Part shown: piece after piece, positions 18,544-57,670 of the stretch | Position numbering within the stretch: position 1 is the stretch's first letter | How the letters are laid out: every line of letters begins with the position of its first letter | Assembly: GCA_022826505.1 (NCBI GenBank) | Contig: JAJDUQ010000052.1 | Location: 62,001-126,000 of the forward strand | Source of the DNA: Gammaproteobacteria bacterium | GTDB lineage: Bacteria > Pseudomonadota > Gammaproteobacteria > HK1 | DNA: 64,000 bases | Reading direction: 5' to 3' | Translations under genes and position numbers: made by a program | The notes under the pieces: model-generated | Told to the model about the DNA's origin: nothing | What the model saw: the letters and a program-made list of their open reading frames with translations, nothing else | The model's database searches: none

Positions 18544-21500
18544 ATGGATGCCCCGGCTTCTCCCGTCTCCGCCATCCTGCTGTTTCGTGGAAGGCGTGCC
18601 TTTTCGGCATTTCGGCGCGCGCGCCTCGTCGAACAGGTACGTGTGGAAACACCTGCGGTTCACGACATCCACGGCCGCTGGATCTACTTCGTGCGCAGCA
18701 ACGATGCCTCGGAGCGGGTCGTCCAACGGCTCGAATGCCTCCTCGACGCTTCATCGGCTCGGTGGGACGCTTCCGGGGCGGAATCGAGCACCAACGTCGT
18801 CGTGACCCCGCGCGCGGGCACGATTTCACCGTGGTCGAGCAAGGCCACCGACATCGCCCGCCGGTGCGGCCTCACCGACGTTTCGAGGATCGAACGGGGT
18901 ATCGAGTGGACGCCGGCGGTGAACGGCGGCGAGGGGTCCGGCGTGGCCCGCGCCCTCGCCGCATCGGGTCTGCTCCACGATCGCATGACGCAGCGCGCGT
19001 CGCCGGCCTGTGAATTCTTCGCCGGCGAGGAAATTCCCGGCGCCGCGATGACGGAGATATTCCTCGACGGCACCCCTCCACCTCACTCGACCATCCGTCT
19101 CGGAGCGGACGCGCACGGCGCCCTGGAGGAGGCGAACGCCACGCTCGGACTCGCTCTGGGCCCGGGGGAGATCGACTATCTGCGTACACGCTTCCGCGAG
19201 CTCGGCCGCGACCCCACCGACGCGGAGCTGATGATGTTCGCGCAAGTGAACTCCGAGCATTGCCGCCACAAGATATTCAATGCCTCCTGGACCATCGACG
19301 GCGTCGAATGCGAGCGGTCGCTGTTCGAGATGATCCGTCACACGCAGGCGTGCCACCCGGGGGAGGTGCTGTCCGCGTACCGGGACAATTCAGCGGTCGT
19401 TGCAGGGCATGCGGCGAGCTGGTTCGTTCCGCATCCGGTCACGGGACGCTACTCGGCGGTGCCCGGACGAGTCGAGATCCTGATGAAGGTGGAGACCCAC
19501 AACCATCCGACCGCGATCTCGCCGTTCCCGGGTGCCGCGACCGGCTCCGGCGGAGAAATCCGGGACGAGGCGGCGACGGGACGCGGGGCCCGGAGCAAGG
19601 CGGGCGTCACCGGATTTTCCGTCTCGGACCTGCTGATCCCGGGTTTCATCCAGCCATGGGAAAACGACCGAGGACGTCCTTCGCACATGGCTTCCGCGCT
19701 GGAGATCATGCTCGACGGGCCGATTGGTGCGGCGGCGTTCAACAACGAGTTCGGGCGACCCGCGCTCGGGGGATACTTCCGCACCTTCGAGTTCGACGCT
19801 GCGACCAGGGGCGCCACCGACGGGTCCGACCCGGAGGCGGGCGGGGTGGATGCCGGCGACGATCCGCGCCACGACGGGGCCGCGGGCGATGGGAGGCGAA
19901 CGCGAACATTCGGCTACCACAAGCCCATCATGGTCGCCGGTGGGGTCGGCAACATCCGCACCGATCAGGTTCACAAGTCCACGCTCGCTCCCGGTGCCCG
20001 CCTCGTCGTGCTCGGTGGACCCGCGATGCTCATCGGCCTCGGCGGGGGCGCGGCATCGTCGATTGCGTCGGGGAGCGGCGAGGAGTCGCTCGACTTTGCC
20101 TCCGTGCAGCGCGAGAACCCGGAGATGCAGCGCCGCTGTCAGGAGGTGATCGACCGATGCTGGCAGCTCGGTGCCGACAATCCGATCCTTTCCATCCACG
20201 ATGTCGGCGCCGGAGGGCTGTCCAACGCCCTTCCCGAGCTGGTCGACGGCGCGAAGCGGGGCGGGCGGTTCGAGCTGCGCGCCGTTCCCTGCGACGACCC
20301 CGGAATGTCGCCACTCGAGATCTGGTGCAACGAGTCCCAGGAGCGCTACGTCCTCGCAATCGATGCGGACCGACTTGCCGACTTCGCGGCGCTGTGCGAA
20401 CGCGAACGCTGTCCATGGGCGGAGGTCGGCGTGGCGACGCGGGACCGGATGCTGGTGGTGCAAGACGCCGAGTTCGATTCGATGCCGGTCGCCATGCCGA
20501 TGCCGACCCTGCTCGGCGACCTTCCCCGCATGCACCGCGACGCCGTCCGGGTGCCGCCCGTCGGCGATGGGTTCGAAATCGGTGGAATCGAGATTGGACC
20601 GGCCCTGGAGCGCGTGCTGCGCATGCCCGCGGTGGGGGACAAGTCGTTCCTGGTCACGATCGGCGACCGCACCGTCGGCGGACTGGTCGCCCGCGATCAG
20701 ATGGTGGGACCGTGGCAGGTGCCGGTGGCGGACTGCGCCGTCACCCTGAGCGATTTCCGCGGGTACACCGGCGAGGCGGTCGCGATGGGTGAACGCACGC
20801 CGCTCGCCGTGCTCGATGCGCGTGCCGCGGCCAGGATGGCGGTGGCGGAAGCGCTCACGAACATCGCGGCGGCGGACGTGGCGAGCATCGACCGGGTGGT
20901 GCTGTCGGCGAACTGGATGGCCGCCTGCGGTGAACCGGGCGAGGACGCAAGACTGTTCGATGCGGTGCGGGCGGTGGCGATGGAGCTCTGTCCCGCGCTC
21001 GGCATCTCGATTCCGGTCGGCAAGGACTCGTTGTCCATGAGCACCACCTGGCGCGACGATGCAGGCGCCCACAAGGTCGTCTCGCCGGTCTCGCCGGTCA
21101 TCACGGCGTTCGCACCGGTCGGAGACGCCCGGCGGAGCCTGGTGCCGATGCTGCGCACCGACCTCGGAGCGTCATCGCTGCTTCTGATCGATCTGGGTTG
21201 CGGCGCGAACCGCCTCGGCGGCTCCGCGCTCGCGCTGTCCCACGGACGTCTCGGCACCACTCCACCCGACCTCGACCGGCCCGAGGCGCTGCCTGCGCTG
21301 TTCCGCGTTCTGTCTCGCCTGCGTTGCGATGGGCTGGTCGCGGCGTACCACGACCGCTCCGACGGCGGTCTCGCCGCATGCGTGCTGGAGATGGTCTTCG
21401 CGGGCCGTACCGGGCTGGACATCGATCTCGACGCGCTCGGTCCGGACCCGATCACGGCGCTGTTCTGCGAGGAGCCCGGCGCGGTGCTCCAGGTGCGTGA

Positions 21501-22704
21501 CGCCGATCTCGGCACGGTTCGCGCGGTCTTCGACTCCGAACCCGTTCTCCGATCCTGCGTCCACCGTATCGGAGCGGTCGAGCCGGGAGATCGCATTCGA
21601 ATTCGGGCCGGCAGCCGTGTCCTTCACGAAGCATCCCGCACCGCGCTGCATCGGGTGTGGTCGGAGACCTCGTACCACATGCAGCACCTGCGCGACGACC
21701 CCGCCTGCGCGGACGAAGAGTACGCACGCATCGCCGACGCGAGCGAACGGGGGCTGTGGTCAAAGGTCACATTCGACGACATGGACAACGTCGCCGATGG
21801 CGCCCGGACCATCCGCATGGATGCCGAGTCCGGCACCGGCATGGACTCCGATGCCGGCAGGAACGCTGTCACCGGTACCGGCAATGACACCGATCCCGAT
21901 TCCGCTCCGGCCGCGCCCTTCATCGCGCACGCGCGCCCCCGGGTCGCGATTCTCCGCGAACAGGGCGTGAACGGACACATCGAGATGGCGGCCTCGTTCG
22001 ACGCCGCCGGCTTCGACGCCTTCGACGTGCACATGAGCGATCTGGCGCACGGCCGCGTCTCGCTCGCCGAGTTCATCGGACTGGCCGCCTGCGGCGGCTT
22101 CTCGTTCGGCGACGTGCTCGGAGCCGGCGGGGGATGGGCCCACTCGATTCGGTTCAACCCGCGTTGCCGGGACGAGTTCGAGGGATTCTTCGGGCGCGAC
22201 GACACCTTTGCGCTCGGCGTGTGCAACGGGTGCCAGATGCTCGAACGGCTGCGCGATCTGATTCCGGGTACGGCCGCCTGGCCCCGATTCCTGCGCAACC
22301 GCTCGGAACAGTTCGAGGCTCGGCTGGTGATGACCCGCATCGTGCGGTCGCCGTCGCTGTTCCTCGAGGGAATGGAAGGCTCCGAGCTCCCCACCGTGGT
22401 GTCGCACGGAGAGGGTCGGGCGGTCTTCGACGCCGATGCATCCGAGCGCGCGTTTCGCTCTCGACTCGTCAGCCTGCAGTACGTCGCATCCAACGGCAGT
22501 CCCGCCGAACGCTATCCCGCCAACCCGAACGGCTCGCAGGACGGGGTGGCCGGCGTCACCACCCCGGACGGGCGGGTGACGATCATGATGCCGCACCCCG
22601 AGCGCACGTTCCGCGCCGTGCAGCACTCGTGGCATCCCGCGCGCTGGGGCGAGCACGGGCCCTGGTTGCGGATGTTCGGAAATGCGCGGAGGTGGTCAGG
22701 CTGA
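18544..22704 (+). CDS. purL: Phosphoribosylformylglycinamidine synthase, single-chain
   Basis: ATP-dependent conversion of FGAR plus glutamine to FGAM in purine synthesis. 1,386 residues, the large one-piece form of beta/gammaproteobacteria. Order: N-terminal PurS-like domain (residues about 8-120), AIR-synthase-type halves with METHNHPTAISPFPGAATGSGG and a second catalytic half, and a C-terminal glutaminase with nucleophile CNGCQM and HPERTFR. Two stretches exceed the usual length: an acidic insert near residues 420-460 (DGSDPEAGGVDAGDDP) and an Asp/Thr/Gly linker before the glutaminase (TGTGNDTDPDS). The ATG at 18544 is set by the PurS-like start; the open frame runs back to 17446 opposite another gene but is not homologous. 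Confidence 0.94.
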   Translation: MDAPASPVSAILLFRGRRAFSAFRRARLVEQVRVETPAVHDIHGRWIYFVRSNDASERVVQRLECLLDASSARWDASGAESSTNVVVTPRAGTISPWSSKATDIARRCGLTDVSRIERGIEWTPAVNGGEGSGVARALAASGLLHDRMTQRASPACEFFAGEEIPGAAMTEIFLDGTPPPHSTIRLGADAHGALEEANATLGLALGPGEIDYLRTRFRELGRDPTDAELMMFAQVNSEHCRHKIFNASWTIDGVECERSLFEMIRHTQACHPGEVLSAYRDNSAVVAGHAASWFVPHPVTGRYSAVPGRVEILMKVETHNHPTAISPFPGAATGSGGEIRDEAATGRGARSKAGVTGFSVSDLLIPGFIQPWENDRGRPSHMASALEIMLDGPIGAAAFNNEFGRPALGGYFRTFEFDAATRGATDGSDPEAGGVDAGDDPRHDGAAGDGRRTRTFGYHKPIMVAGGVGNIRTDQVHKSTLAPGARLVVLGGPAMLIGLGGGAASSIASGSGEESLDFASVQRENPEMQRRCQEVIDRCWQLGADNPILSIHDVGAGGLSNALPELVDGAKRGGRFELRAVPCDDPGMSPLEIWCNESQERYVLAIDADRLADFAALCERERCPWAEVGVATRDRMLVVQDAEFDSMPVAMPMPTLLGDLPRMHRDAVRVPPVGDGFEIGGIEIGPALERVLRMPAVGDKSFLVTIGDRTVGGLVARDQMVGPWQVPVADCAVTLSDFRGYTGEAVAMGERTPLAVLDARAAARMAVAEALTNIAAADVASIDRVVLSANWMAACGEPGEDARLFDAVRAVAMELCPALGISIPVGKDSLSMSTTWRDDAGAHKVVSPVSPVITAFAPVGDARRSLVPMLRTDLGASSLLLIDLGCGANRLGGSALALSHGRLGTTPPDLDRPEALPALFRVLSRLRCDGLVAAYHDRSDGGLAACVLEMVFAGRTGLDIDLDALGPDPITALFCEEPGAVLQVRDADLGTVRAVFDSEPVLRSCVHRIGAVEPGDRIRIRAGSRVLHEASRTALHRVWSETSYHMQHLRDDPACADEEYARIADASERGLWSKVTFDDMDNVADGARTIRMDAESGTGMDSDAGRNAVTGTGNDTDPDSAPAAPFIAHARPRVAILREQGVNGHIEMAASFDAAGFDAFDVHMSDLAHGRVSLAEFIGLAACGGFSFGDVLGAGGGWAHSIRFNPRCRDEFEGFFGRDDTFALGVCNGCQMLERLRDLIPGTAAWPRFLRNRSEQFEARLVMTRIVRSPSLFLEGMEGSELPTVVSHGEGRAVFDADASERAFRSRLVSLQYVASNGSPAERYPANPNGSQDGVAGVTTPDGRVTIMMPHPERTFRAVQHSWHPARWGEHGPWLRMFGNARRWSG

Positions 22705-22903
22705 TCACGGCCACGTTGGAGGCTCGCCGCAAAATTTCACCGATTCTCGAAGCGAGGGCGTGGAGATGGCTGGATTCGCAAGGCGAACGCGAGTCAGGGC
22801 GCGCAGACGTACTTGACAGTACAATCGAGCACCCTGGCCGCGTTCAACGCAGCGAATCCAGTCAGACCCGCGTCCGCAGCCGTGAATTGGTGCAATATTG
22901 CGG

Positions 22904-25510
22904 CTAGTACGTCCTGGCGACCCGGAAGCCGATTTGGTCGCTGCGAATGCGGACCGCGAATGAACTGCGCACCGCCGAACGCACGCTGCGCGGACCGACT
23001 CTCCACGACCCGCCCCGCAGCATGCGGTGTTTGCAACTCGACTGCACGACCCATGCACTGCCATCCGAAGGCGAATTCTTGTAGTTCGCGTGCCAGCAGT
23101 CCTCCACCCACTCCCATACGTTGCCGTGCACGTCGAACAATCCGAACGGATTCGGCGGAAACGAACCCACCGGCAAGGTTTTCGAAGCGTCCGAACGATT
23201 TCCGCAACGCTTGCAATTCGCCCGATTCGGCCCTGGGTCGTCGCCCCAGTGGTAGCGAGTCGCGGTACCCCCCCTCGCCGCGTACTCCCACTCCGACTCG
23301 CTCAGCAGCCGGTATCGTTCCCCGGTCTTGTTCGACAGCCAACGCACGTAGTCCTGGGAATCCGTCCAGCTCACGTTGACGACCGGACGATTCTCGCGAC
23401 CCCAGCCGTTGTCCTTCGGGCGTGTGGGACACCCCCCCTCGCGGTGACACGCATCCCATTCGGAGAACGTGATCTCGTGTACTCCCACCGCAATCGACTC
23501 GGAAATCGTGACGTCATGCACCGGGCCTTCATCGCCAAAGCGTTCCACTTCGTCGGGCATCGACCCCATCCGAAATGTGCCCGACGGCAATACGACCATC
23601 AGTGGACACTCGGCGCAGTCCCGGAACGAATCCGCAGCTTCGATCGGTTTTTCGCCTCGCAGCACCATTTGCAATGCCGTCGCCATCTTCTTGCGCTCCG
23701 GATGGTCCCCGGGTGCTGCGCGAAGCCAGGACCGATATGCGGCCGCGGCCTGTTCGAACTGACCCAATCTCGAGTGCGCCTTCGCCTCGATGCGGTGCAG
23801 CGCCACTCGTTTACCCGCCACGTCCGCGATTCGTCTGACCGATTCCAGAGCGGACCGGGCACTGGCCTCATCCCTTGCCTGGATGTCCTTGATCAGCCCG
23901 TCGACCGCACTCTCGACCACCGATTCGACGGCATCGATCCTCCCGTACTTGCGCAGATGACCGGCCCCCTCCACCAGAAGTGAACGGTAGTCTCCCGATT
24001 CCAGTCGGTCCTGCGCCAGAAGCACCCAATCCGAGAGGCTCAACCCGCTGGAGAGAAAGATTCTGGTCGGGTCGGAAACCCGAGACGGGCTCGTTCTGTC
24101 GGCATCTCCGCCCGAGGGCTGCAGCAACATCGATCCCTCGCCGGCCGTCGACGCCGCAGTATCGGACGGTGCCGTCGCCGCAAGCAGCCTCTTCGCGGAC
24201 TCCGCGTCGAGATATCCTGTCTCCGCGATCCCGTACTCCTCCTGGTACGATCGGACCGCCAACCGGGTGCGGTTGCCGAACAAGCCGTCCGCCGGCCCCG
24301 GATTGAATCCCAATGCCGTCAGGCCTCGCTGGATTCGACGCCGTTCCGAACGATTCAGGCCAAGCGACGATTCAACCGTCTCCGGTGAAATCTCGGCGGA
24401 CACGGACGGCACCGAGGTTTCCCGCAATTCCGTCCCGGGCGCCACCGCGACGTCCGATGCCCCACCAGCCTGTGGCCCCTCCGATGCCTCCAGCCGACTC
24501 AGCCGGTTGCGGGCCAGCGCTTCGTACTCGCCATCCGGATACAGTCCCAGATAAGCACGAAAGTCCGCCGGCTCGTCGCTGTCCTTGATCGACTCCCAGA
24601 ACAGCAGCTCGCGCTCGACCGCCAGCCGCTCCGCCGCGAGCCGCTCCGCCGCCACCCGCTCGGATGCGGCCTCATCGCCGACATCCGATGAACCGGGGGC
24701 GGGCACCACGGAGGCCGGAGCCGCCGCCAGGTAAACCCCCCGACTCGACAACGATCCGTACACGAACGGTTGCTGCCGGCCCCCCGTCGAAGCCAATACT
24801 GCGTCGCGCACCTTGCGGAACATCAGCCCTACTTCGAGTCCCGGCTCCTCCAGGTGCGCGAGCAGCGCTTCGCTGTACGGACTGTTTCGGCCCGAACCGT
24901 CCGAGGCTACTGTCCCCTCCTTCGCCGCATACGCCACCAGGGTCTCTCCCGACGGCTCCACTCGTGCAAGCCCACGCCCGATCGAACGTGTCGCCCCGGC
25001 GCGTTGCATGTTCACCGCGAACGGGTTCTCCCGGCACGCATCGAGAATCACCAGCCGCAGCCCCGAAGCGCGTTCCACCGCCCGCGAGACCAGATCCAGC
25101 GGCACCGCCTCGAACTCCACGTCCTGGTCGCTCGCGAGACGTGCGTCCACCGGCACCAGGAAGTTGCGCTGGTCCACCTCGATGCCGTGTCCGGCGTAGA
25201 ACACCACCGCGACCTCGGAGGCCGACGCGGCAAGCGCGAACTCCTGGAGACCGCGCCGAAGTTCGAGCTGTCCCGCATTCTCGATCCGTGTCACCGAGAA
25301 CCCCAGGCGACCGAGCGCGGCACCGATGTCTGCCGCATCATTGAGGGGATTCGCGAGCGCCGGAGCATGCGCGTAGGAGGCATTGCCGATCACCAGCGCG
25401 ACCCGCTGTGACGCCGACACCGGGCCGGCCGACATGACCAGCAGGGCGGTCGCGGCCAAGCATCGGATAGCGCAGAGTGGAAGATTTTCGATCGCCCGGC
25501 CTTCCTTCAC
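22904..25510 (-). CDS. Exported caspase-like protease with peptidoglycan-binding and FGE-sulfatase domains (paralogue A)
   Basis: 868 residues. Signal peptide 1-33 (cleavage after GPVSA), caspase-like C14 domain about 34-261 with His108 in FYAGHG and Cys159 in LDACRENP, an Ala/Glu-rich connector, a peptidoglycan-binding-1-like domain about 382-444 (ALGFNPGPADGLFG), a helical TPR-like section about 490-610, and an FGE-sulfatase domain about 628-868 ending RGGSW...GFRVAR. The FGE catalytic cysteines are absent, so it likely binds a ligand rather than making formylglycine. GTG at 25510 is chosen because AGGAG lies just upstream. Last of a row of four minus-strand paralogues (94 bp after B); convergent with purL. 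Substrates are unknown. Confidence 0.9.
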   Translation of the reverse strand: MKEGRAIENLPLCAIRCLAATALLVMSAGPVSASQRVALVIGNASYAHAPALANPLNDAADIGAALGRLGFSVTRIENAGQLELRRGLQEFALAASASEVAVVFYAGHGIEVDQRNFLVPVDARLASDQDVEFEAVPLDLVSRAVERASGLRLVILDACRENPFAVNMQRAGATRSIGRGLARVEPSGETLVAYAAKEGTVASDGSGRNSPYSEALLAHLEEPGLEVGLMFRKVRDAVLASTGGRQQPFVYGSLSSRGVYLAAAPASVVPAPGSSDVGDEAASERVAAERLAAERLAVERELLFWESIKDSDEPADFRAYLGLYPDGEYEALARNRLSRLEASEGPQAGGASDVAVAPGTELRETSVPSVSAEISPETVESSLGLNRSERRRIQRGLTALGFNPGPADGLFGNRTRLAVRSYQEEYGIAETGYLDAESAKRLLAATAPSDTAASTAGEGSMLLQPSGGDADRTSPSRVSDPTRIFLSSGLSLSDWVLLAQDRLESGDYRSLLVEGAGHLRKYGRIDAVESVVESAVDGLIKDIQARDEASARSALESVRRIADVAGKRVALHRIEAKAHSRLGQFEQAAAAYRSWLRAAPGDHPERKKMATALQMVLRGEKPIEAADSFRDCAECPLMVVLPSGTFRMGSMPDEVERFGDEGPVHDVTISESIAVGVHEITFSEWDACHREGGCPTRPKDNGWGRENRPVVNVSWTDSQDYVRWLSNKTGERYRLLSESEWEYAARGGTATRYHWGDDPGPNRANCKRCGNRSDASKTLPVGSFPPNPFGLFDVHGNVWEWVEDCWHANYKNSPSDGSAWVVQSSCKHRMLRGGSWRVGPRSVRSAVRSSFAVRIRSDQIGFRVARTY

Positions 25511-25604
25511 CGCTCCTGCTCCTCCCTCAAAGTCGTTTCGTTGTCGGACCCGTGCCGGCGCCGATCCATTTTGGCCGGCGGTCAACTCGAGTACGGGATA
25601 CGCC

Positions 25605-27932
25605 TCATTGCAGTGTCCTCACGACCCGGAAACCGATATTCTGCGTCCGGATACTGGAGAGATTCCTTCCGCGAGTTGCGGAACGCACGAGTTGCACCGG
25701 ACTGATCATCGAGCCACCTCGAAATACCCGGCGGCTGCAGTCCCCGGACGCCATCCACGCGCTGCCGTCCGACGGCGCCCGCTCGTAGTCGCCGTGCCAG
25801 CAATCCTCGACCCACTCCCACACGTTGCCGTGCACGTCGTACAGACCGAACGCGTTCGGGGAGAACGAACCGAGCGGAGACGTCTGGTTCGAATCCCATC
25901 GACTGCCGCATCCGGCGCAATTCGCGCGACCGCGTTCAGGCTCGTTTCCCCAGTTGAATCGAGTCGTCGTGCCGCCCCGCGCCACGTACTCCCACTCCGA
26001 CTCGCTCAACAGTCGGTACGTCTCTCCCGTCTTCCTCGACAACCAGCGCACGTACTCTCTCGCGTCCTCCCAACTGACGTCGATCACCGGACGATTCACG
26101 CGTCCCCACTTCCGGTCGTCGGGATAGTGCGAACAGCCTCCGTCGCGGCGACACGCTTCCCACTCGCCGAAAGTCACCTCATACACTCCGACCGCCAGTG
26201 GCTCGGGGATGGTCACCTTGTGGCTGGGGCCCTCATCCTCGAACCGCGCCTCGTCGGTGCGGGGCGACCCCATTCGATACGAGCCCGCCGGCACGATCAC
26301 CAGGTCCGGACAGTCGGCGCAGTCCCGAATCCGACGACCCGGCTTGCGTTCGTTCGCCGCGCGTTCGGCCTCCTCGGCCTCCGATCTCAGGCGTCGCGCT
26401 TCGGCCACATGTCGACCCGCTGGAAACATGCCCACGTACTCCCCGTACGCCTTTGCGGTCCCCGACGACTTCGCCCGTGCGAATGCCGCGTCTTCGGCCG
26501 TCGCCAGCAGAAACTTGGCCGACTCCGCATCCAGATGTCCCGTCTCCTCCTCGCTGCGCGAGGACTGCCACCTGCCGATCGCACCGCGGGTGACGCGCCC
26601 GAACAGCCCGTCGGTGGGCCCCGGGTCGAACCCCAGCGACGCCAGCCCTGCCTGAATCAGGCGACGTTCCGAACGCTCCAGGCCCAGCGACGACTCCACT
26701 GCCTGCGCAGTGGGCGGCGGAGGCGGGATTTCGGCAGGCTCCTTCGACGGCACCGCGGCGGAGACCGTCGGTTCCACCGATGCCTGTGCCAGTGTCTCGG
26801 AGGTATTGGCAGCAGCGGTGGCTTTCGAGGGTGAAGCCGTCCCGGTCGCCCTCTGCAGCCGCTTCAGCCGATTGCGGGCCAGTACCCCGTAGGTGCCGCC
26901 GGGGTACTGGTCCAGATAGGCCTGAACGTCCGCCGCATCGACGCTGTCCTTGACAGAATCCCAGAACAGCAGCTCCAGTTCGGCCGCCAGGCGCTTTGCC
27001 GCAAGCTGCTCCGCAGTGAGACGGTCGGATGCGGACCCGCTTTGCGCCGAGTAGTCCGCCGGCGCGGCAGTCCCGCTCGCGGGCTGGCCCGGCCTCATCC
27101 CCTGTACGCCGACACTCGTCCCCGCCTGAGCGCCTGCGGCGTGCGCGGCAGGCAGAGGCACGAAGTAGAAATCACCGGTCAGCGAGCTGCTTTCCCATGG
27201 CGTCTGCTGCCGATTCGTTTCGTGCTCGACCGACACCCGGACCCGTTTGAAGATATCCTCCAGCTTCAACCCCGGTTCCGTCATGGCGAGCGCCAGGGCC
27301 GCGGTGTAGGGCGAGTTTGCCCCCTTCCCGTCCGTGGCCACCTTGCCCGGTGCCGCCGAGTAGGCGATCAGCGAGCCCGACGGCGCATCGACCCGCCCCA
27401 GGCCGCGGCTGCCACTTCGGAAGGTGTCCCCGTAGGGGTTGTTCCGGCACGCGTCCAGAATCACCATGTTGAGTCGGTTCCCCGCCTCTTCCATCCACGA
27501 AAGGATCCACTCCGCCGGTACCGCGTCGCTCTTGAGCTCGGTCTCGCTGCCTATCTCCGCGTTCAGTGGAATCAGGTAGTTGCTTCCACCAGCCTCCACG
27601 CCGTGACCCGCGTAGTAGAACAATCCCACCGCCTCGTCCCTGCCCCGGGCGAGCCGCCGCCCGAACGCCTTGATCGCCCGGTTCATCGCTTCCCGGTCGG
27701 CATCGATGACGAGGGAGACGTCGAACCCGAGCCCTTCGAGGGTTCGGGCCATCAGGGTCGCGTCGTTCACGGGGTTGTCGAGCTTCGAGATGCGGCCGTA
27801 GCCGCCATTGCCCACCACCAGGGCCACGCGTTCGGACGCCGGCGCCGCGCCGCCCCAGATCCCCAGCACCACACCGAGCGCCAGCAGTGCCCATGGAGCC
27901 ATCCGTGCACTTCCTTCCGAGCCCGTACGCAT
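25605..27932 (-). CDS. Exported caspase-like protease with peptidoglycan-binding and FGE-sulfatase domains (paralogue B)
   Basis: 775 residues with the same plan as its neighbours but the most diverged protease of the row. Signal peptide 1-33 (ends GGAAPAS), caspase-like domain with His110 in YYAGHG and Cys152 in LDACRNNP, a connector with the recurrent SVKDSVDAADVQAYLDQYPG repeat, a PG-binding-like domain (SLGFDPGPTDGLFG), an Ala/Arg-rich helical segment, and an FGE-sulfatase domain from about 545 (DCADCPDLVIVPAGSYRMGS) to the tail GFRVVRTLQ. It lacks the longer TPR-like section seen in A, C and D. ATG at 27932 has GGAGGG five bases upstream; a TTG overlapping the stop of C (28001) is a weaker option. 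The gap to C is 65 bp. Confidence 0.9.
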   Translation of the reverse strand: MRTGSEGSARMAPWALLALGVVLGIWGGAAPASERVALVVGNGGYGRISKLDNPVNDATLMARTLEGLGFDVSLVIDADREAMNRAIKAFGRRLARGRDEAVGLFYYAGHGVEAGGSNYLIPLNAEIGSETELKSDAVPAEWILSWMEEAGNRLNMVILDACRNNPYGDTFRSGSRGLGRVDAPSGSLIAYSAAPGKVATDGKGANSPYTAALALAMTEPGLKLEDIFKRVRVSVEHETNRQQTPWESSSLTGDFYFVPLPAAHAAGAQAGTSVGVQGMRPGQPASGTAAPADYSAQSGSASDRLTAEQLAAKRLAAELELLFWDSVKDSVDAADVQAYLDQYPGGTYGVLARNRLKRLQRATGTASPSKATAAANTSETLAQASVEPTVSAAVPSKEPAEIPPPPPTAQAVESSLGLERSERRLIQAGLASLGFDPGPTDGLFGRVTRGAIGRWQSSRSEEETGHLDAESAKFLLATAEDAAFARAKSSGTAKAYGEYVGMFPAGRHVAEARRLRSEAEEAERAANERKPGRRIRDCADCPDLVIVPAGSYRMGSPRTDEARFEDEGPSHKVTIPEPLAVGVYEVTFGEWEACRRDGGCSHYPDDRKWGRVNRPVIDVSWEDAREYVRWLSRKTGETYRLLSESEWEYVARGGTTTRFNWGNEPERGRANCAGCGSRWDSNQTSPLGSFSPNAFGLYDVHGNVWEWVEDCWHGDYERAPSDGSAWMASGDCSRRVFRGGSMISPVQLVRSATRGRNLSSIRTQNIGFRVVRTLQ

Positions 27933-27997
27933 CAGTCCCTCCGAGTCCTTCCGCCGCCTCGAACCGAACAATGGACGAGGAAGCGACGATACATCGC

Positions 27998-30457
27998 TCA
28001 ATCCAGTGCCCTGGCTACGCGGAAGCCGACAAGCTTGAGCCGGGCACCCACCGGATCCTGGCTGCGATACGCGGAACGCAGAAGTGGCGGCGCACTAAAG
28101 AATGAACCGCCCCGCAGCACCCGACGACTGCAGTCCCCGCCGGCGAGCCAGGGGCTTCCGTCGGACGGTGCGCCCGCGTAGTCCGCGTGCCAGCAGTCCT
28201 CCACCCACTCCCATGCGTTTCCGTGCATGTCGAACAGACCGAACGCATTCGGCGAGAACGATCCCGCCGGAGATGTGCTGCCGCCGTCCCAGCGACTACC
28301 GCAACCCGCGCAGTTCGCATCGTTGCGCTGCACGGCGTCCCCCCAGTGGTAGCGAGTCGTGGTGCCGCTCCGGGCAGCGTACTCCCACTCCGACTCGCTC
28401 AACAGGCGATACTCCTTCCCGGTCTTCGCCCGCAGCCATCGTACGTACTCCTGCGCGTCCTCCCAGCTCACGTTCACGACGGGACGCGTCTGACGGCCCC
28501 AGCCCTGATCGGACGGATCGTGCGAGCAGCCACGCTCGCGACGACAGGCATCCCACTCGGCGAACGTCACCTCGTACATCCCCACCGCCATTGGTCGTCC
28601 GATGATCACATCGTGCACCGGACCTTCGCCGTCGTCACGACCCTCTTCCCCCCTCGGAGAGCCCATTCGGTACATGCCATCCGGCACCACCACCATGTGT
28701 GGACATTCCCCACAATCCCTGAACTTGTCGCGCGGCGCCAACGGGATTTCGCCTCTCTGCGCCTTCTGCAGCCCGATCACCATCGCCTTGCGTTCGGGAT
28801 GCTCCGGCGGCGCGGTGCGGAGCCAGGACCGGTACGCCCTTATCGCGTCCTCGAATCGACCAAGCCTCGACCAGGCCTTGGCCTCGACGCGGTGCAGCGC
28901 CTGCTGCGGCCCCGATACGTCCTTGATCCGTTTCACGAAGTCGAGCGCGGAGCGTGCATCCGCTTCATCATTCACCCGAAGACCGTCGATCAATCCTTCG
29001 ATCGCTCGCTTCACTACCGAGACGACACCGTCGGATGGACCGTACTTGCGCGTATGACCGGCGCCTTCGACCAGCAGGGAACGGTACTCGCCCGATGCCA
29101 GCCGATCCTCGGCAAGCAGGACCCAATCGGAAAGACTGATTCCGCTGGCCAGAAATATCGTCGCCGGGTCGGTCACCGGCGACGTTCTCGCCCCGGCCGC
29201 GGCGTCCTGTGCGGACCCGTCCGACCCCGCCCCCGCGGCCAGCAACAACTTCACTCCATCGGCGTCCAGGTGACCTGTGACCGACAGCTTGCCGGCAGCC
29301 TGCCAACCACGTATCGCTGCGCGCGTGCCGCGTCCGAAGAGACCGTCGATCGGTCCGGGATCGAATCCCTGAATCGCCAGCGCCCGTTGAATCCGGCGCC
29401 GGTCGTGGCGCGTGAGTCCCAGCGCGGCTTCGTCCGAGCCTTTCGACGACGATGTCTGCGCAGGCGCGGAATCCGATGCCTGCAAACTCTTCAGGCGGAT
29501 GTCGGCCAGCGCGATGTAAATGCCGTTCGGATACTGTGTCCTGTAGGCCAGCAGGGCGGCTGCCCGGGCCGACGGATTCTCCATGGCTTCAATCGACTTC
29601 CAGAACTGAACCTCGGCCGCCGATTCACCATCGTGGGTGCTGCCGCCGGTAGTGGTGAGGGCTCCACTCGGGTCCGAGTCGGCGGGGGGAATGAGATACA
29701 CTCCGCGGCTCGACAGCGACCCGTATACGAACGGCTCCTGCCGACCCCCCGTCGAGGCCAGCACCGTATCGCGCACCTTGCGGAACATGAGCCCCACCTC
29801 GAGACCCGGTTCCTCCAGGTACGCAAGCAGCGCCGAGCTGTACGGACTGTTGCGACCCGAACCGTCCGACGCCACCGTGCCCTCCTTCGCCGCATACGCC
29901 ACCAGCGTCTCGCCCGACGGCTCCACGCGCGCGAGACCGCGACCAATCGAGCGGGTCGCGCCGGCGCGCTGCATCGTCGTCAGAAACGGGTTCTCCCGGC
30001 AGGCATCGAGAATTACCAGCCGTAGACTCGCGGCGCGCTCCACCGCCCGCGAGAGCAGCTCGAGCGGCACCGCTTCGAACTCCACGTCCTGATCGCTCGC
30101 CAGGCGTGCGTCCACCGGCACGAGAAAGTTGCGGCGGTCCACCTCGATACCGTGGCCGGCGTAGAACACCACGGCGACCTCGGAGGCCGAGGCCGCGCGC
30201 TGGAACTCCTTCAGACCACGGCGCATCGCCGCATCGCCCACATTCTCGAGGCGCGTGACCGCAAAGCCGAGGCGTTTCATTGCCGCGCCGACATCCGCCG
30301 CGTCATTGAGAGGATTGGCGAGCGCCGGGGCGTGGGCGTAGGAGGCGTTGCCGATGACCAGAGCCACACGCTCGGCGGCCGGGGCGGGAAGTGAGGTCGC
30401 GACCAGCACAAGAGCTGCGAGGAACGCCGGGAAGTGTGTGAGCCGAATTCCGGTCAT
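27998..30457 (-). CDS. Exported caspase-like protease with peptidoglycan-binding and FGE-sulfatase domains (paralogue C)
   Basis: 819 residues. Signal peptide 1-28 (ends LPAPAA), caspase-like domain with His102 (FYAGHG) and Cys153 (LDACRENP), a short WKSIEAMENPSA-type connector, PG-binding-like domain (GFDPGPIDGLFG), TPR-like helices, and an FGE-sulfatase domain with the paired cysteines NCAGCGSRWD and tail GFRVARALD. The protease domain is nearly identical to that of A over long blocks (for example VEPSGETLVAYAAKEGTVAS is shared), whereas the FGE ends differ. The chosen ATG is 17 bp after the stop of D, indicating one transcript. The frame upstream of 30457 overlaps D and is not used. Confidence 0.9.
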   Translation of the reverse strand: MTGIRLTHFPAFLAALVLVATSLPAPAAERVALVIGNASYAHAPALANPLNDAADVGAAMKRLGFAVTRLENVGDAAMRRGLKEFQRAASASEVAVVFYAGHGIEVDRRNFLVPVDARLASDQDVEFEAVPLELLSRAVERAASLRLVILDACRENPFLTTMQRAGATRSIGRGLARVEPSGETLVAYAAKEGTVASDGSGRNSPYSSALLAYLEEPGLEVGLMFRKVRDTVLASTGGRQEPFVYGSLSSRGVYLIPPADSDPSGALTTTGGSTHDGESAAEVQFWKSIEAMENPSARAAALLAYRTQYPNGIYIALADIRLKSLQASDSAPAQTSSSKGSDEAALGLTRHDRRRIQRALAIQGFDPGPIDGLFGRGTRAAIRGWQAAGKLSVTGHLDADGVKLLLAAGAGSDGSAQDAAAGARTSPVTDPATIFLASGISLSDWVLLAEDRLASGEYRSLLVEGAGHTRKYGPSDGVVSVVKRAIEGLIDGLRVNDEADARSALDFVKRIKDVSGPQQALHRVEAKAWSRLGRFEDAIRAYRSWLRTAPPEHPERKAMVIGLQKAQRGEIPLAPRDKFRDCGECPHMVVVPDGMYRMGSPRGEEGRDDGEGPVHDVIIGRPMAVGMYEVTFAEWDACRRERGCSHDPSDQGWGRQTRPVVNVSWEDAQEYVRWLRAKTGKEYRLLSESEWEYAARSGTTTRYHWGDAVQRNDANCAGCGSRWDGGSTSPAGSFSPNAFGLFDMHGNAWEWVEDCWHADYAGAPSDGSPWLAGGDCSRRVLRGGSFFSAPPLLRSAYRSQDPVGARLKLVGFRVARALD

Positions 30458-30474
30458 CGCACTATCGTCGCAAT

Positions 30475-32898
30475 TCAATCCAGTGCCCTGGCGACTCGAA
30501 TTCCGGAATTGGCGACCCGGTATCCCGGCGGAATCTTGACCCGGTTCGCCGAGCGCAGGCCCATCGGCCAGTTGAACCAGGATCCGCCCCGCAATACCCG
30601 ATAGGCGCAGTTTCCTCCGGTCGTCCAGGCACTCCCGTCGCGTGGGGCTCCCACGTAACCTCGATGCCAGCAGTCCTCCACCCACTCCTGAACGTTCCCG
30701 TGCACATCGTGCAGGCCGAACCCGTTGGCCGAGAACGATCCTACCGGGGATGTCCGGTTGCCGGGCTGGTGCTCCCGGCATCCGTTGCAGTTCGTGCGGC
30801 CCCGGCCTTCCTCGTCTCCCCACCAGTACCGTGTCTCCGTCCCCGCCCTTGCCACGTACTCCCATTCCGATTCGCTCAGCAACCGAAATTCCTTCCCGGT
30901 CGTACTCGACAGCCAGTCCACGTAGGATTGCGCATCGACCCAACTGACGTTCAGCACCGGCCGCGTCCCACGTCCCCATCCCTCGTCGTGGGGATTGTGC
31001 GTACACCCGCCCCCGCGTCGGCAGGCCTCCCATTGCGCGAACGTCACCTCGTACACCCCCACCGCAAAGGGTTCGGAAATCGTCACGCGATGTACCGGCC
31101 CCTCGTCCTTTTCCCGTCCGCCTTCGCCCACCGGACTGCCCATCTCGAACGTCCCCGACGGCACCACGACCAACTCCGGACACTCCGCACAGTCGCGAAT
31201 CCGTTCCCCGACGATGGGCCTGCGCTCTCCGCGCTCAGCGTTGCGCATCTGTGCCAGCATCTTCCGCCGCATCGGATGATCCGCGGGCGCCAGACGCAGC
31301 CACGACCGATATGCCTCCACCGCCTGGGCGAACTGTCCGAGACGCACGTGCGCCCGCGCCTCAACCCGAGCCAGGTCCGCACGTTCGCCCGCAACGTCAC
31401 GAATTCGCTTCGCCGTCGCGAGCGCCGAGCGTGCGCTCGCGACGTCCGTCACCCGCGCCTCCGCGAGCATGCCCGCAACCGCCCGCTCCACCACGTTCTC
31501 GACCGGTGCATGGCGACCGTGCTCGCGCAGATGACGCGTCCCCTCGACCAGCAGCTTTCGGTAGTCGCGCTCCGTCAGCCGATCCTCGGCCAGCATCACC
31601 CAGTCCGACAGCCGCAGTCCGCTCGCCAGCGCGATCGACGACGACTGCGACTTCGGTACCTCGCGTTGCGGCTCCGCCACGCGAACAAGCAACGCCTTGA
31701 CCGCGTCCGCATCCAGGTGGCCGGTCGACGCCATGCCTTCGGTCGTCTGCCAGGCGGAGATGGCGGCCCTCGTTCGGCGCCCGAACCACCCGTCCGTCGG
31801 GCCGGGATCGAAACCGGTTGCGCGGAGCGCGCGCTGGATTCGACGTCGATCCTCGCGCGCCAGGCCAAGCGCGGCCTCGACCGCCTCACTGGACATCGCC
31901 TGCGCCGGTGCCTGCGTACGGTGTGCCGTCCTGAGACTGTCCAGTCGAATCTCGGCGAGATCCGAATACACACCGCCAGGAAACTTCGCCTTGTAGTCGA
32001 GCAGCGCCGCGATTCTCGCTGCCGGATCCCCGATGGTGTTGATCGCCTTCCAGTGCTCGATCTCGACCGCCGGCCCGAACGCCGTCCCGGTCGGTCCTGC
32101 CGTCGAATCCTGACTCGCGGGAGGAATGAGGTACGCGCCTCGTGCAGAAAGGGAGCTGTATGCGAACGGCTCCTGGTTCCGGCCGGTGGCCTCCAGCACC
32201 GCGTCGCGCACCTTTCGAAACATCAACCCCACCTCCAGCCCCGGCTCCTCCACGTAACGGAGCAGCGCGCTGGTGTAAGGGCTGTTGCGGCCCGTGCCGT
32301 CCAGGGCCAACGTGCCCTCCTTCGCGGAGTAGGCGAGCAGCGTTCCGCCGCTGGAAGGCTCGGCCCTCGCCAGACCACGACCGATCGAACGCGTCGAGCC
32401 CCTTTCTCGCTTCATCGACGCCAGGAACGGGTTGTCGCGGCATGCATCGAGCACCACCAGGCGGAACTCGGAAGCGCCCTCCACGGCGCTCATCACCAGA
32501 TCGAGCGACACCGTCTCGAACTCGACGTCCCCGTCGGTCTGCAGGCGCGCATCCACCGGAACGAGGAAGTTGTGCTTGTTCATCTCGATGCCGTGACCGG
32601 CGTAGAACACCACGGCGATCTTCGCTACCCCCGCCCCACGTCTGAACCTCTTGAGGCCGTGGCGCATCTCCGCGTCGCCGGCATCGGCCAGCCGCGTCAC
32701 CGTGAAGCCGAGACGTTCGAGCGCCGCACCCACGTCCGCGGCGTCGTTGAGCGGATTCGCAAGCGCCGGGGCGTGCGCGTAGGAAGCGTTCCCGATGACC
32801 AGCGCCACCCGCTCGGCCGCGAGTGCGGGAACGGACAGCATGACCGACGAGACCACGACGAGCCAGAGATGAAGAGAGCTGTGCCGGAATCTTGTCAT
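30475..32898 (-). CDS. Exported caspase-like protease with peptidoglycan-binding and FGE-sulfatase domains (paralogue D)
   Basis: 807 residues and first of the four-gene row, so probably nearest the promoter. Signal peptide 1-28 (ends VPALAA), caspase-like domain with His102 and Cys153 (LDACRDNP), PG-binding-like domain (ATGFDPGPTDGWFG), an Arg/Ala-rich TPR-like section, and an FGE-sulfatase domain ending GIRVARALD. The usual CGSRWD pair is changed here to NCNGCREHQPG. GGAG six bases before the ATG fixes the start. The 263 bp upstream separate it from a divergent gene at 33162 and should hold both promoters. Confidence 0.9.
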   Translation of the reverse strand: MTRFRHSSLHLWLVVVSSVMLSVPALAAERVALVIGNASYAHAPALANPLNDAADVGAALERLGFTVTRLADAGDAEMRHGLKRFRRGAGVAKIAVVFYAGHGIEMNKHNFLVPVDARLQTDGDVEFETVSLDLVMSAVEGASEFRLVVLDACRDNPFLASMKRERGSTRSIGRGLARAEPSSGGTLLAYSAKEGTLALDGTGRNSPYTSALLRYVEEPGLEVGLMFRKVRDAVLEATGRNQEPFAYSSLSARGAYLIPPASQDSTAGPTGTAFGPAVEIEHWKAINTIGDPAARIAALLDYKAKFPGGVYSDLAEIRLDSLRTAHRTQAPAQAMSSEAVEAALGLAREDRRRIQRALRATGFDPGPTDGWFGRRTRAAISAWQTTEGMASTGHLDADAVKALLVRVAEPQREVPKSQSSSIALASGLRLSDWVMLAEDRLTERDYRKLLVEGTRHLREHGRHAPVENVVERAVAGMLAEARVTDVASARSALATAKRIRDVAGERADLARVEARAHVRLGQFAQAVEAYRSWLRLAPADHPMRRKMLAQMRNAERGERRPIVGERIRDCAECPELVVVPSGTFEMGSPVGEGGREKDEGPVHRVTISEPFAVGVYEVTFAQWEACRRGGGCTHNPHDEGWGRGTRPVLNVSWVDAQSYVDWLSSTTGKEFRLLSESEWEYVARAGTETRYWWGDEEGRGRTNCNGCREHQPGNRTSPVGSFSANGFGLHDVHGNVQEWVEDCWHRGYVGAPRDGSAWTTGGNCAYRVLRGGSWFNWPMGLRSANRVKIPPGYRVANSGIRVARALD

Positions 32899-33161
32899 GG
32901 CGCCACTCCGATCATTGGCGAGGCCGCCCTGCCGCCTGCGCATCGCACGTGGAGGCCGGTCGGGCTCCGCGCATGGTTCGGTACCCTCCACGCGGCGATT
33001 CGACCGGGACGAGGGCAGCGTAACCGGTGGCACCCGCAAGGTACAAACGCAACCGGTCGGATACTCCACCGTGGCGTGGCGACCCTCCCGGCAGGTTGTA
33101 GGCCCGCCAGGCGGCGGTATATCTTGCGAGCCGGCGACTTGCGCTGGGAGGATGGCGAGCG

Positions 33162-33875
33162 TTGATTGCGGAAGACACCTCACGAGCCCACGGCAACGAA
33201 TCCGACCCGTTCGATGACGAAGCCGAGACGATGCGCGACATCCGGACCTGCGAAGCGCTGCACGAGGCCAGGGCGGCATTTCACGACGCGCTGGTGGAGG
33301 ACTCGGCAGTCCAGGATCGCCACTTCGCCGTGCAGCTTCGGCAGGAACCGCCCTACCAGATTGCGGAGTTCTTCTTTCTCCTGCGTGCATTTCAGCTCGA
33401 CAGCGAGACGAAGGTTCGACGCTATGCCGAGCTGCACAACCTCCATCTCGAACGGCTGCTGGCCGACCGTACGAAGATGCGCAGGTTGGGTCTGAGCCCC
33501 ACCCGGGTCCGAAAGGGCATGTTCTCGCCCGAGAGCATCCCGAAGCTGGTAGAGAATTACCGCTCGGGAGACGGTGCCATCGACCAATCCGATCTGTCGC
33601 GCCTGCTTATCGAGGTGATGTCGCCCGAGACCTGCCGCAAGACGGCGGTGGTACTCGCCGATGCCGGCTACCTCGAGCGTCATCGGTCGCCCTACCAGTC
33701 GGTGCTGGTGCGCTCGACCGGCGAGCTGGAACGAATCTTCGCCCGCTGCCTGCGCCATGTTCGCGCGAGCCTCGCGCTCGACGGCGCCCCGCTGCACACG
33801 ACCGATTTCGACCGACACGCGGTGCCGCCGAACTCCGGTGGCGCTGCCGAGGCCGACGAGAGGACGGCGCGATGA
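33162..33875 (+). CDS. Unrecognised helical, soluble protein
   Basis: 237 residues, no signal peptide or membrane segment, mostly charged helices (for example EFFFLLRAFQLDSETKVRRY). No family recognised. The start is uncertain: TTG at 33162 with GGGAGG ten bases upstream, or ATG at 33231 (MRDIRTCEALHEAR). It is divergent from the caspase row and overlaps the next gene by four bases (ATGA), so the two are translated together. As one of only two plus-strand genes within the minus-strand caspase block and apparently cytosolic, it could be a regulator or adaptor, but nothing in the sequence proves that. Confidence 0.7.
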   Translation: MIAEDTSRAHGNESDPFDDEAETMRDIRTCEALHEARAAFHDALVEDSAVQDRHFAVQLRQEPPYQIAEFFFLLRAFQLDSETKVRRYAELHNLHLERLLADRTKMRRLGLSPTRVRKGMFSPESIPKLVENYRSGDGAIDQSDLSRLLIEVMSPETCRKTAVVLADAGYLERHRSPYQSVLVRSTGELERIFARCLRHVRASLALDGAPLHTTDFDRHAVPPNSGGAAEADERTAR

Positions 33876-34306
33876 AGTACCGACACAGGTATCGGTGTGA
33901 CCCGAAGACACTCGCGAACAAGAGGATGTTCGAGCACCGGCGAATGGTTCTGGCCGCCGCGCTCGCGCTCTTCCTGCCGACCCCGGCCGCGGCTGAGCTG
34001 ACGGGGCACAAGGAGTTCCGCGCCGCGCTGGCCGGCAAGTCGGACCAGGTGCTGGTCGCAGCAAACCCGGAGCTCGAACGAATCGCCCGGGAGAATCCGG
34101 AGTTGCTGCACGAGGTGCTCCGACGCCTGCGGGAGTCGACATTCTCCTACAGTCGTGCGCTCACGAAGGCCCGACCGAAGCCGGCGTCTGCGGCCGAAAG
34201 TGCGATACTCGCCGAGAACCCGGATCTCGACGAGTTCTACCGCGAGTCCCCCGAGGCGGCGCTCGACTTGCTTCGCCTCATACGGGAAGCGGCGAAGAGG
34301 CAGTAG
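33872..34306 (+). CDS. Small exported protein with NPEL-type repeats
   Basis: 144 residues. A hydrophobic stretch near residues 26-40 (MVLAAALALFLPTPAAA) preceded by Arg residues makes a signal peptide; an internal Met (MFEHRRMVL, residue 19) may be the real start. The mature part is helical and repeats a short theme: NPELERIAREN, NPELLHEVLRR, and NPDLDEFYRESPE, each followed by a helix. Not recognised. It overlaps the preceding gene (ATGA) and is convergent with the caspase-DUF4384 gene at 34365. Likely a periplasmic partner of its soluble neighbour. Confidence 0.7.
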   Translation: MKYRHRYRCDPKTLANKRMFEHRRMVLAAALALFLPTPAAAELTGHKEFRAALAGKSDQVLVAANPELERIARENPELLHEVLRRLRESTFSYSRALTKARPKPASAAESAILAENPDLDEFYRESPEAALDLLRLIREAAKRQ

Positions 34307-34364
34307 CCGCTGCCGGCCGGGTGCCGGTGTTGTCCACGGGTCCCGCCCTGTTGAACGACTTCCC

Positions 34365-36125: not shown

Positions 36126-36136
36126 GGTTCGTCTCC

Positions 36137-37870: not shown

Positions 37871-38000
37871 CCGAATTCGGCGCCCATTGTTCGCCCGTTG
37901 TCGTCACGATCGACATTCGGGGGCGTTCTCATGCGCAGACCGAGCATCGTCATGCGGCGGGCCGCGGTCTCGTTCGGCTGCAATCGATGGCGCCCTTCGT

Positions 38001-39992: not shown

Positions 39993-40064
39993 CGGTCTGT
40001 CTCCTCGTTGTCAAATGCGACCCGGTACCCGCCGAAGCGGCCTGCTCGCCGTAACGGCGTCCCC

Positions 40065-45880: not shown

Positions 45881-45978
45881 CTCCGCCTCCACGGTGGTGA
45901 GTCGGTGACGAGTTCAGGCCGTCGCGAATACACCGGGCCATAGCCCCGCCGGTGCGCGCCTGACACGGTCCCGACCCT

Positions 45979-47988: not shown

Positions 47989-48047
47989 GGCATGGTGCTC
48001 CGTTGGTGAGATGACAGTGGATCCCGCTCTGCGGCAACCGGCGTGGC

Positions 48048-55927: not shown

Positions 55928-57670
55928 TCAGTTCAGCGCTCGAGCGACCCGGAAACCGTTGGCGCTGAACCGGATGCCGATCGTTCCCCTGTCGCGGGCC
56001 GAAGAGCGCACCCCTCCCGGCCCGTCGAGCCACGAACCGCCTCGCAGCACGCGCAGCTCGCAGGTTCCGTCGTCCGTCCACGCGCTTCCGTCCGTCGGCG
56101 CATCGCCGTAGTCGCGATGCCAGCAATCCTCCACCCATTCCCGCGCGTTCCCCAGCATGTCGTACAAGCCGAATTCGTTCGACCCGTAGCGGCCCGCCTC
56201 GGAGGTGTGGGCGGACCCGTCATCGCACGAGGCAGTCAGTTCGAACCAGTCCGAGTAGTACGTCTTCAGCGACTCGTCGGCGCCGTTGGCGTTTCCGCAT
56301 TGCCGGGAATCGCTCGTGTCCCAGTAGCGCGGTGTGGCGGTCTTGCCACGCGCTGCGTACTCCCACTCCGACTCGCTCAACAGTCGATACTTCTTCCGCG
56401 TCTTCCTCGACAGCCAATCCACATACGCCTTCGCATCCGTCCAGCTCACGCAGACCATCGGCTCCTTCTCGCCCTGAACGAACCCCGGATCCGCCGGTCC
56501 GCTGCCCTCCTTCGTCGTCACACCGTCGTACTGCCAGCACGCACTGCCGCCCGACTGATTCGTCTCCTTCAGGAACTGGGCGAACTCGCCGCGTTGCACC
56601 TCGAACACGCCGACCGCAATCGGCTCGGGGATGGTCACCCGGTGTCGCTGCACTTCATCGTGAGCGCCCTCGCCCGATGGCGAACCCATGGCGTAGCTGC
56701 CTGCCGGAATCACGACCATCCGGGGACACTGCGGACAGTCTCTGAACCCGCCGTCGTGCTGAAGATCCGGCGCCGCGAGACCCTCGCCCGCCCCAGGCGT
56801 TGCGACCACCTGCGGCGCCGCCGCGTGAGGTCTGGTCGTCGCTTGCGGCGCAGTGGTCGTCGGGCGTGATGCCGCATACGCGGACGGTATGAAGTAGAAC
56901 GGCTTTCGAAGGGAGGAGTGAGTCCACGGCTGCTGTTCGTCGTGCGTGGCGGTCATCACCGTATCGGTCACCGTGGCAAGCAGATCGTTCACGCTCAGCC
57001 CCGGCGTCGCAATGTGAGCAAGCAACGCACCGGTGAACGGCGAGTTTCGACCGACACCGTCATCGGCCACGTTTCCGGGCTGCGTGGCATAGGCGATCAG
57101 CGTCCCGCTCGCATCCGTCACCCGACCGAGGCCTCGCTGGATCGCGGCGGAACGGCTCACACCCATCGAGCGCTTCAGGCCATCCGCCAGAGGGTTGTCT
57201 CGGCACGCATCCAGAAACACGAGATTTGTTCTGCTTCTCATCTGGCCCATGAATGCGGCGAGCTCGAACGCTTCGAGGCGAAGGTCCACCTCCTCCTTCA
57301 GCCTGGCGTCGATCGGCACCAGGTAGTTGTCACCGTCCACTTGCAAACCGTGCCCGGCATAGAAGAACAGGGATATGTCGGCGCGTCGCGCCGCTCTGGC
57401 GAACTCCCGGAGCTTCGTGGCGAATCCGTTCTTGTCGAGATCCAGTCCGGCAATCACCTCGAAGCCCAGATCCGAGAGCGCCCGGGACATGTCGCCGGCA
57501 TCGTTCCTGGGGTTTCGCAGGGGTGTCGTATGCTCGTACGCGGAGTTCCCGATCACCAGCGCGACGCGTCCCGCCGCCTGCGCCGGCTCCGCCAATGCAC
57601 CCAGCCAGGTCAGGGCAAGGAACATGGCAACCGCTCCGGGCGTCCAGCTTGTTCCGTTCCGTATTTCCAT
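55928..57670 (-). CDS. Exported caspase-like protease with FGE-sulfatase domain (paralogue I)
   Basis: 580 residues, the shortest caspase-FGE protein. Signal peptide 1-33 (ends AEPAQAA), caspase-like domain with His107 (FYAGHG) and Cys155 (LDACRDNP), a Pro/Thr/Ala-rich linker of about 40 residues in place of the peptidoglycan-binding domain, and an FGE-sulfatase domain from about 310 (CPQCPRMVVIPAGSYAMGS) to the end RGGSW...GFRVARALN. GAGG about six bases ahead supports the ATG. It is transcribed towards the repeat protein J. Last gene of the caspase cluster before msrP. Confidence 0.89.
   Translation of the reverse strand: MEIRNGTSWTPGAVAMFLALTWLGALAEPAQAAGRVALVIGNSAYEHTTPLRNPRNDAGDMSRALSDLGFEVIAGLDLDKNGFATKLREFARAARRADISLFFYAGHGLQVDGDNYLVPIDARLKEEVDLRLEAFELAAFMGQMRSRTNLVFLDACRDNPLADGLKRSMGVSRSAAIQRGLGRVTDASGTLIAYATQPGNVADDGVGRNSPFTGALLAHIATPGLSVNDLLATVTDTVMTATHDEQQPWTHSSLRKPFYFIPSAYAASRPTTTAPQATTRPHAAAPQVVATPGAGEGLAAPDLQHDGGFRDCPQCPRMVVIPAGSYAMGSPSGEGAHDEVQRHRVTIPEPIAVGVFEVQRGEFAQFLKETNQSGGSACWQYDGVTTKEGSGPADPGFVQGEKEPMVCVSWTDAKAYVDWLSRKTRKKYRLLSESEWEYAARGKTATPRYWDTSDSRQCGNANGADESLKTYYSDWFELTASCDDGSAHTSEAGRYGSNEFGLYDMLGNAREWVEDCWHRDYGDAPTDGSAWTDDGTCELRVLRGGSWLDGPGGVRSSARDRGTIGIRFSANGFRVARALN

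Follow-up and report, generated by a model that had tools for sequence, protein, structure and literature searches.

A tandem array of putative wall-bound caspase-FGE receptors in a gammaproteobacterium, with a domain plan that is a DGR target in a relative

Variable proteins of diversity-generating retroelements (DGRs) with orthocaspase N-termini have been described in cyanobacteria, where DGR-free paralogues also exist (Vallota-Eastman 2020, PMC7517822). DGR-diversified sensors of conflict systems were reported for Thiohalocapsa PB-PSB1 (Dore 2024, PMC10907252), and ternary conflict systems were described by Kaur 2020 (PMC7159879). A survey of 2012 (Asplund-Samuelsson, PMC3501461) recorded fusions of metacaspases, 33 with an FGE domain and 11 with a peptidoglycan-binding domain (PGB). 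So far, the DGR-diversified sensors proposed for bacteria come from cyanobacteria and one purple sulfur bacterium, and most are taken to be intracellular.

We analyzed a window of 64,000 nucleotides (G000:C77:62001-126000) from a 6.23 Mb gammaproteobacterial draft genome (346 contigs, 94.5% complete), which holds four related genes, A to D. As in the cyanobacterial system (PMC7517822), the encoded proteins have an N-terminal caspase-type peptidase and a C-terminal C-type-lectin/FGE-like domain, and there are several paralogues per genome, some of them lacking a nearby DGR. Most of the cyanobacterial proteins were predicted to be cytosolic, whereas in A-D a signal-like N-terminus is combined with a peptidoglycan-binding domain; also unlike the cyanobacterial system, four genes stand in tandem, and protease type and FGE are exchanged, in proteobacterial relatives. 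The conflict systems (PMC10907252, PMC7159879) resemble A-D in that a variable C-type-lectin/FGS domain is the proposed sensor and a caspase- or trypsin-type peptidase the proposed effector, but there the two are mostly separate proteins accompanied by MoxR or NACHT ATPases, whereas in A-D they are fused. Among the annotated neighbors of A-D no MoxR or NACHT partner was found, the nearest hint being a YfbK-type vWA protein (49537-51582). The pairwise domain fusions of A-D were already recorded in the 2012 survey (PMC3501461), which regarded FGE as an enzyme and contained no discussion of DGRs, of the variable patch or of the exchange of modules. None of the papers found in a literature search describes arrays of exported caspase-PGB-FGE proteins that DGRs target; cyanobacteria are known to have orthocaspases linked to DGRs, and the putatively exported, PGB-carrying form appears to be new. 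In A-D, protease and variable sensor are fused in proteins with signal-like N-termini and a wall-binding domain. We estimate a probability of roughly 0.6 that A-D are exported, wall-bound orthocaspase receptors with an FGE sensor of the DGR class, now lacking a DGR.

The array, its domains and its surroundings

The four genes occupy 22904-32898 on the minus strand in the order D-C-B-A, with intergenic gaps of 17, 65 and 94 bases. The claim of four tandem caspase-PGB-FGE paralogues, made earlier in a sequence-only reading, was borne out, as each gene combines a putative signal peptide, a caspase, a PG_binding_1 and an FGE domain:

30475..32898, minus strand: gene D, 807 aa, ATG at 32898; signal peptide, caspase ~32146-32811, PGB 31690-31857, helical linker, FGE 30487-31182
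27998..30457, minus strand: gene C, 819 aa, ATG at 30457; signal peptide, caspase 29714-30370, PGB 29258-29404, helical linker ~28757-29137, FGE 28010-28705
25605..27932, minus strand: gene B, 775 aa, ATG at 27932; signal peptide, caspase (other clade) 27165-27830, PGB 26523-26675, FGE 25617-26312, no helical linker
22904..25510, minus strand: gene A, 868 aa, GTG at 25510, start preceded by GGAGGAGCAGGAG; signal peptide, caspase 24749-25405, PGB 24191-24352, helical linker, FGE 22913-23608

The Peptidase_C14, PG_binding_1 and FGE-sulfatase domains of A-D all score far above the Pfam cut-offs (Peptidase_C14: E 1e-33 to 1e-40, over the curated cut-off; FGE-sulfatase fold family: E 1e-49 to 1e-54). 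The His-Cys dyad motifs AGHG and LDACR are aligned and intact in all four, and the nearest in structure to the caspase is MALT1. The N-termini, as read directly from the sequence, appear hydrophobic and signal-like and end in A-x-A. Between PGB and FGE, an additional linker module of ~120 residues, helical throughout, is found in A, C and D and is absent from B; in the AlphaFold2 model of C (mean pLDDT 77) it is predicted to comprise the helices at 442-567.

Nine of the eleven caspases of the genome are found within ~35 kb. Those outside the array are:

34365-36569: caspase with DUF4384
36137-37870: caspase alone
43346-45892: caspase with WD40-like repeats
45979-48510: caspase with OmpA and DUF4384
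55928..57670, minus strand: caspase-FGE gene without PGB, of another caspase clade; a relative outside the array

Tail to tail with the last of these lies a gene for a large TPR protein (1113 aa; 52573-55914, plus strand), which ends in an FGE domain. An ORF of 237 aa (33162-33875, plus strand), divergent from gene D, had no Pfam or NCBIfam match, and an Rfam search of 20000-40000 returned nothing. PADLOC matched no known anti-phage system and gave only weak generic 'caspase' matches.

The combination of a signal-like N-terminus, a wall-binding domain, an intact dyad and a variable tip makes an envelope receptor protease the most likely identity of A-D. In the following scheme we infer their location, ligand binding, protease activation and biological role, and that their own ancestors may have been DGR targets. 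The PGB and the helical linker would anchor the proteins at the wall, and the C-terminal non-canonical FGE (C-type-lectin-like) domain would be the recognition module. Binding of a ligand to the variable face of the FGE would cluster or release the caspase, and the triggered caspase would cleave envelope proteins, so that the cell is stopped or killed, or a signal is processed. The FGE tip is of the class of variable domains rewritten by DGRs, as a relative's DGR does on the same architecture, and A-D evolve through gene copying together with the swapping of modules (protease type, linker/PGB and FGE).

The caspase-rich neighborhood with its OmpA, autotransporter, DUF4384 and WD40 genes would also suit envelope housekeeping, in which wall-bound proteases process envelope proteins under stress and the patch binds fixed endogenous partners; cyanobacterial orthocaspases have likewise been discussed as homeostatic (PMC7517822). 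Considering the patchy presence of caspases in the same family (0 to 11 per genome), and the fact that relatives exchange modules and have DGRs that target such genes, which suggests a changing ligand, we regard such housekeeping as rather unlikely, and it is similarly doubtful that A-D are without a role in defense or recognition.

The nearest solved structure to the FGE domain is that of PvdO (5HHA; E 1e-54, ~40% identity in the fold match), a single-domain siderophore maturation protein that is periplasmic, as is predicted for A-D, and required for the last oxidation of pyoverdine. Given this relation, and the fact that members of the FGE family are often enzymes, the FGE domains might be working enzymes that perform a PvdO-like oxidation or another modification, with a patch that varies with the substrate of each paralogue. 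This is unlikely, as A-D miss the NCBIfam PvdO equivalog cut-off (231-236 of 500 bits). Canonical FGEs bind copper through a cysteine pair in the C-terminal segment, and the RGGS...GFR segment of A-D, which includes the patch, contains no cysteine; A-D belong to the fold family and lack the pair. Purified PvdO was itself inactive and had no detectable cofactor (PMC6206403), and in the relative G015, described below, the DGR would randomize the pocket. Such genes should not be annotated as sulfatase-modifying enzymes.

Divergence along the genes and exchange of modules

The sequence-only reading had proposed that A, C and D share a near-identical protease, kept so by constraint or gene conversion, while the remainder differs much more through diversifying selection on the recognition end. 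The block ALVIGNASYAHAPALANPLN is indeed identical in all three, and the caspases of A and C are 89% identical at the amino acid level (82% at the nucleotide level); D is too distant to be called near-identical (74% to C and 72% to A). The different protease ascribed to B was confirmed (40-42% identity to the others), the plan being the same apart from the helical linker. The PGB (54-69%), the linkers (30-64%) and the FGE (59-66% in every pair, B included) do differ more, except that the contrast is reversed in B, whose FGE is equally close and whose protease is the most different.

The caspase pS is near saturation (0.48 for A/C, 0.51 for D/C and 0.57 for D/A), compared to 0.57-0.65 for the FGE over all pairs (0.59-0.65 among A, C and D). 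By Fisher's test, four-fold sites showed no significant difference between the caspase and the remaining parts (p 0.056, 0.09 and 0.38), and a GENECONV-like permutation test on the silent sites of A-D gave no significant tract (lowest p 0.145). Windowed identity and silent sites were the check that had been suggested, and the high silent divergence in the caspase as well speaks for selection only. Recent conversion within A-D was therefore dropped in favor of old constraint and module shuffling. The constraint on the protease is evident from a dN/dS of 0.10 for the A/C caspase. Diversifying selection across the whole FGE was also dropped (dN/dS 0.21-0.28), and what is left of that claim concerns a C-terminal patch of ~34 residues, which shows an excess of amino acid changes and is a DGR variable region in relatives, where the FGE end is also exchanged as a block. 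That conversion keeps the protease of A, C and D uniform while selection diversifies the sensor end is, all in all, very improbable and for the genes of the window largely refuted: the similarity of the A/C caspases, with a pS slightly below that of the rest, and a stretch with pS 0 in the tandem caspase pair of a relative (L054) would fit, but the silent sites and the missing tract do not, the caspase of D is not a supported sister of those of A and C, and B contradicts the rule.

In a caspase tree that included relatives, B joined the caspases of L053 (99% support), apart from the A/C/D group, and a single caspase clade for A-D was rejected by 124 log units. For linker1 plus PGB, the grouping of A with B was supported (AU 0.998; alternatives AU ~0.002), and the four-fold sites of linker1 are 70% identical between A and B versus 44% expected by chance. 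The FGE tree was unresolved and did not reject A-D together, and therefore we make no claim as to which FGEs pair. This implies that protease type and the rest differ in history; recombination did shape A-D, as module mosaicism and not as homogenization of the protease.

The A/C/D type of caspase is uncommon: in an even sample of 369 genomes of the class, only the genome of the window and one other had a match past E 1e-60. They were found in the MAGs L052-L055, with tandem copies in L052, L053 and L054. The C-terminal module is FGE in L052 and L053 and consists of MORN repeats in L054; in L055 and in contig C221 of the window's own genome MORN repeats were read from the sequence. The gene on C221 (L086 8923-10284) has an A/C/D-type caspase that ends in MORN-like repeats and not in PGB-FGE. 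Within the same family, this PGB-FGE end also occurs on caspases of another type, where ankyrin or PEGA domains are inserted. In one reading frame of G015 (L078 8067-11837, contig C117), three FGE and two PGB domains occur in series.

Exchange of the FGE end was most apparent in G006, which like G015 and the genome of the window is a draft (contamination estimates 5-8%). Two of its genes (L083:4948-7860 and L084:621-3512) are mostly 88-100% identical in amino acids over caspase-Ank-PGB (with a dip to 78%; pS ~0.03-0.28) and 30-78% identical inside the FGE (pS 0.36-0.81). The flanks are homologous (DNA identity 90.5% upstream and 94% downstream), which makes the FGE a replaced block within otherwise matching loci; the two may be strain alleles or paralogues, or, less probably, reflect an assembly error at a repeat. 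In a second pair (L082), the PGB-linker tract is shared (pS 0.03-0.3) between diverged ends.

The C-terminal patch and the DGRs of relatives

The most variable columns of 23 FGEs of the family cluster at domain residues 193-226 (~34 residues), where they alternate with an invariant frame of R-GGS, RSA, R and GFR. In eight one-use pairs, pN/pS was 0.85 in the patch versus 0.34 in the rest of the FGE (chi2 p 3e-8; windows outside the patch 0.21-0.56); since the ratio does not reach 1 and these very sequences had served to define the region, this indicates concentrated change and not formal positive selection. The patches within the array are:

30490..30603, minus strand: variable C-terminal patch of D; its 38 codons enclose the hypervariable core
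28013..28126, minus strand: variable C-terminal patch of C
25620..25733, minus strand: variable C-terminal patch of B
22916..23029, minus strand: variable C-terminal patch of A

A complete DGR was found in G015, a member of the same family, on contig C417. It consists of an Avd (PF22296, E 3e-19; NF033474, 98.8 bits with a cut-off of 80), a reverse transcriptase of 375 aa with the motifs LPIGNLTSQ and YVDD, and a template (L115:5407-5529) that reads RGGSWNNKPRNLRSANRNRNETGNRNNNIGFRIA. Three genes have a variable region at the 3' end:

L115:2149-5298: caspase-PEGA-PGB-FGE gene
C417:1964-2710: FGE gene
L151:93-3695: caspase-PGB-FGE gene, on contig C162

Over 114 bases these regions have 18, 16 and 12 mismatches to the template, all at template adenines (18/18, 16/16 and 12/12, or 46/46). 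Two of the three targets are caspase-PGB-FGE genes and one is an FGE gene. The caspase-PGB-FGE genes of G015 have all that marks a DGR target (reverse transcriptase, Avd, template and adenine-only differences), and the pattern is characteristic of a DGR that acted recently, here on the domain plan of the window.

The patch of D is the best match to the G015 template in the window's genome (75% over 59 bases). In a gapless alignment, A-D vary at 16 of the 17 template codons that have A in the first two bases, compared to 9 of the 21 other codons (p 0.0015; for distinct residues p 2e-6), and they share the template residue at 15-20 of the 21 fixed codons and at 0-4 of the 17 mutable ones. A control set taken from other families of the class (14 FGEs) showed the same contrast between positions (2.64 vs 1.15 bits), which means that the mutable codons lie on a face of this fold whose variability does not depend on a DGR; the correspondence was therefore no longer taken to prove DGR ancestry. 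A DGR may have acted on A-D in the past. Given that A-D match only 55-62 of the 83 non-adenine bases of the template, no DGR related to that of G015 has recently copied its template into them.

Within their own draft genome A-D do not have the marks of DGR targets. No Avd matched NF033474, no template was found, A-D also differ from the G015 template at non-adenine positions, and no DGR reverse transcriptase was found; the sole reverse transcriptase match was rejected as a candidate, being a fragment of the group II intron type that lies at the end of a contig. That A-D are live targets of a DGR missing merely through incomplete assembly is extremely improbable: the draft state of the genome (346 contigs, 94.5% complete) and the DGR in the same family would allow it, but true variable regions match every non-adenine template base, and the patches of A-D show silent differences among themselves.

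Remains of a DGR occur in G003, a single-contig genome of the window's genus, in which a template-like copy comes after an FGE gene (L146:3006-4031). An IS66 element interrupts this copy behind base 86 (split template at L146 4123-6799), and the two halves of the copy overlap by 9 bases, possibly a target-site duplication. No reverse transcriptase follows the split template; only short reverse transcriptase fragments were found in G003 and G002, and two Avd fragments in G003. A second template-like copy in G003 (L147 5391-5530) is unbroken (86%) and lies beside a leucyl-tRNA-synthetase-like gene, with no reverse transcriptase match nearby. In the class survey, a single-contig genome of 1.5 Mb (G339:C1) gave twelve Avd-like matches, all below the family cut-off.

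A proposed sensor family with and without DGRs

With the DGR decayed in the sister genome G003 and not detectable here, A-D would today change through ordinary mutation and the exchange of modules. As the same patch of the same kind of protein is rewritten in a relative, A-D resemble dormant members of a sensor family that is capable of change. More tentatively, the wall-anchored caspase and the DGR-rewritable sensor on one polypeptide might constitute an envelope-facing, self-diversifying receptor for cell death or defense, of which the window would represent the DGR-free stage, G015 the active one and G003 the dead one. The occurrence of active, decayed and absent DGR states in one family makes the fate of a hypervariable receptor after loss of its mutator addressable, and A-D permit asking whether caspases guard the envelope.
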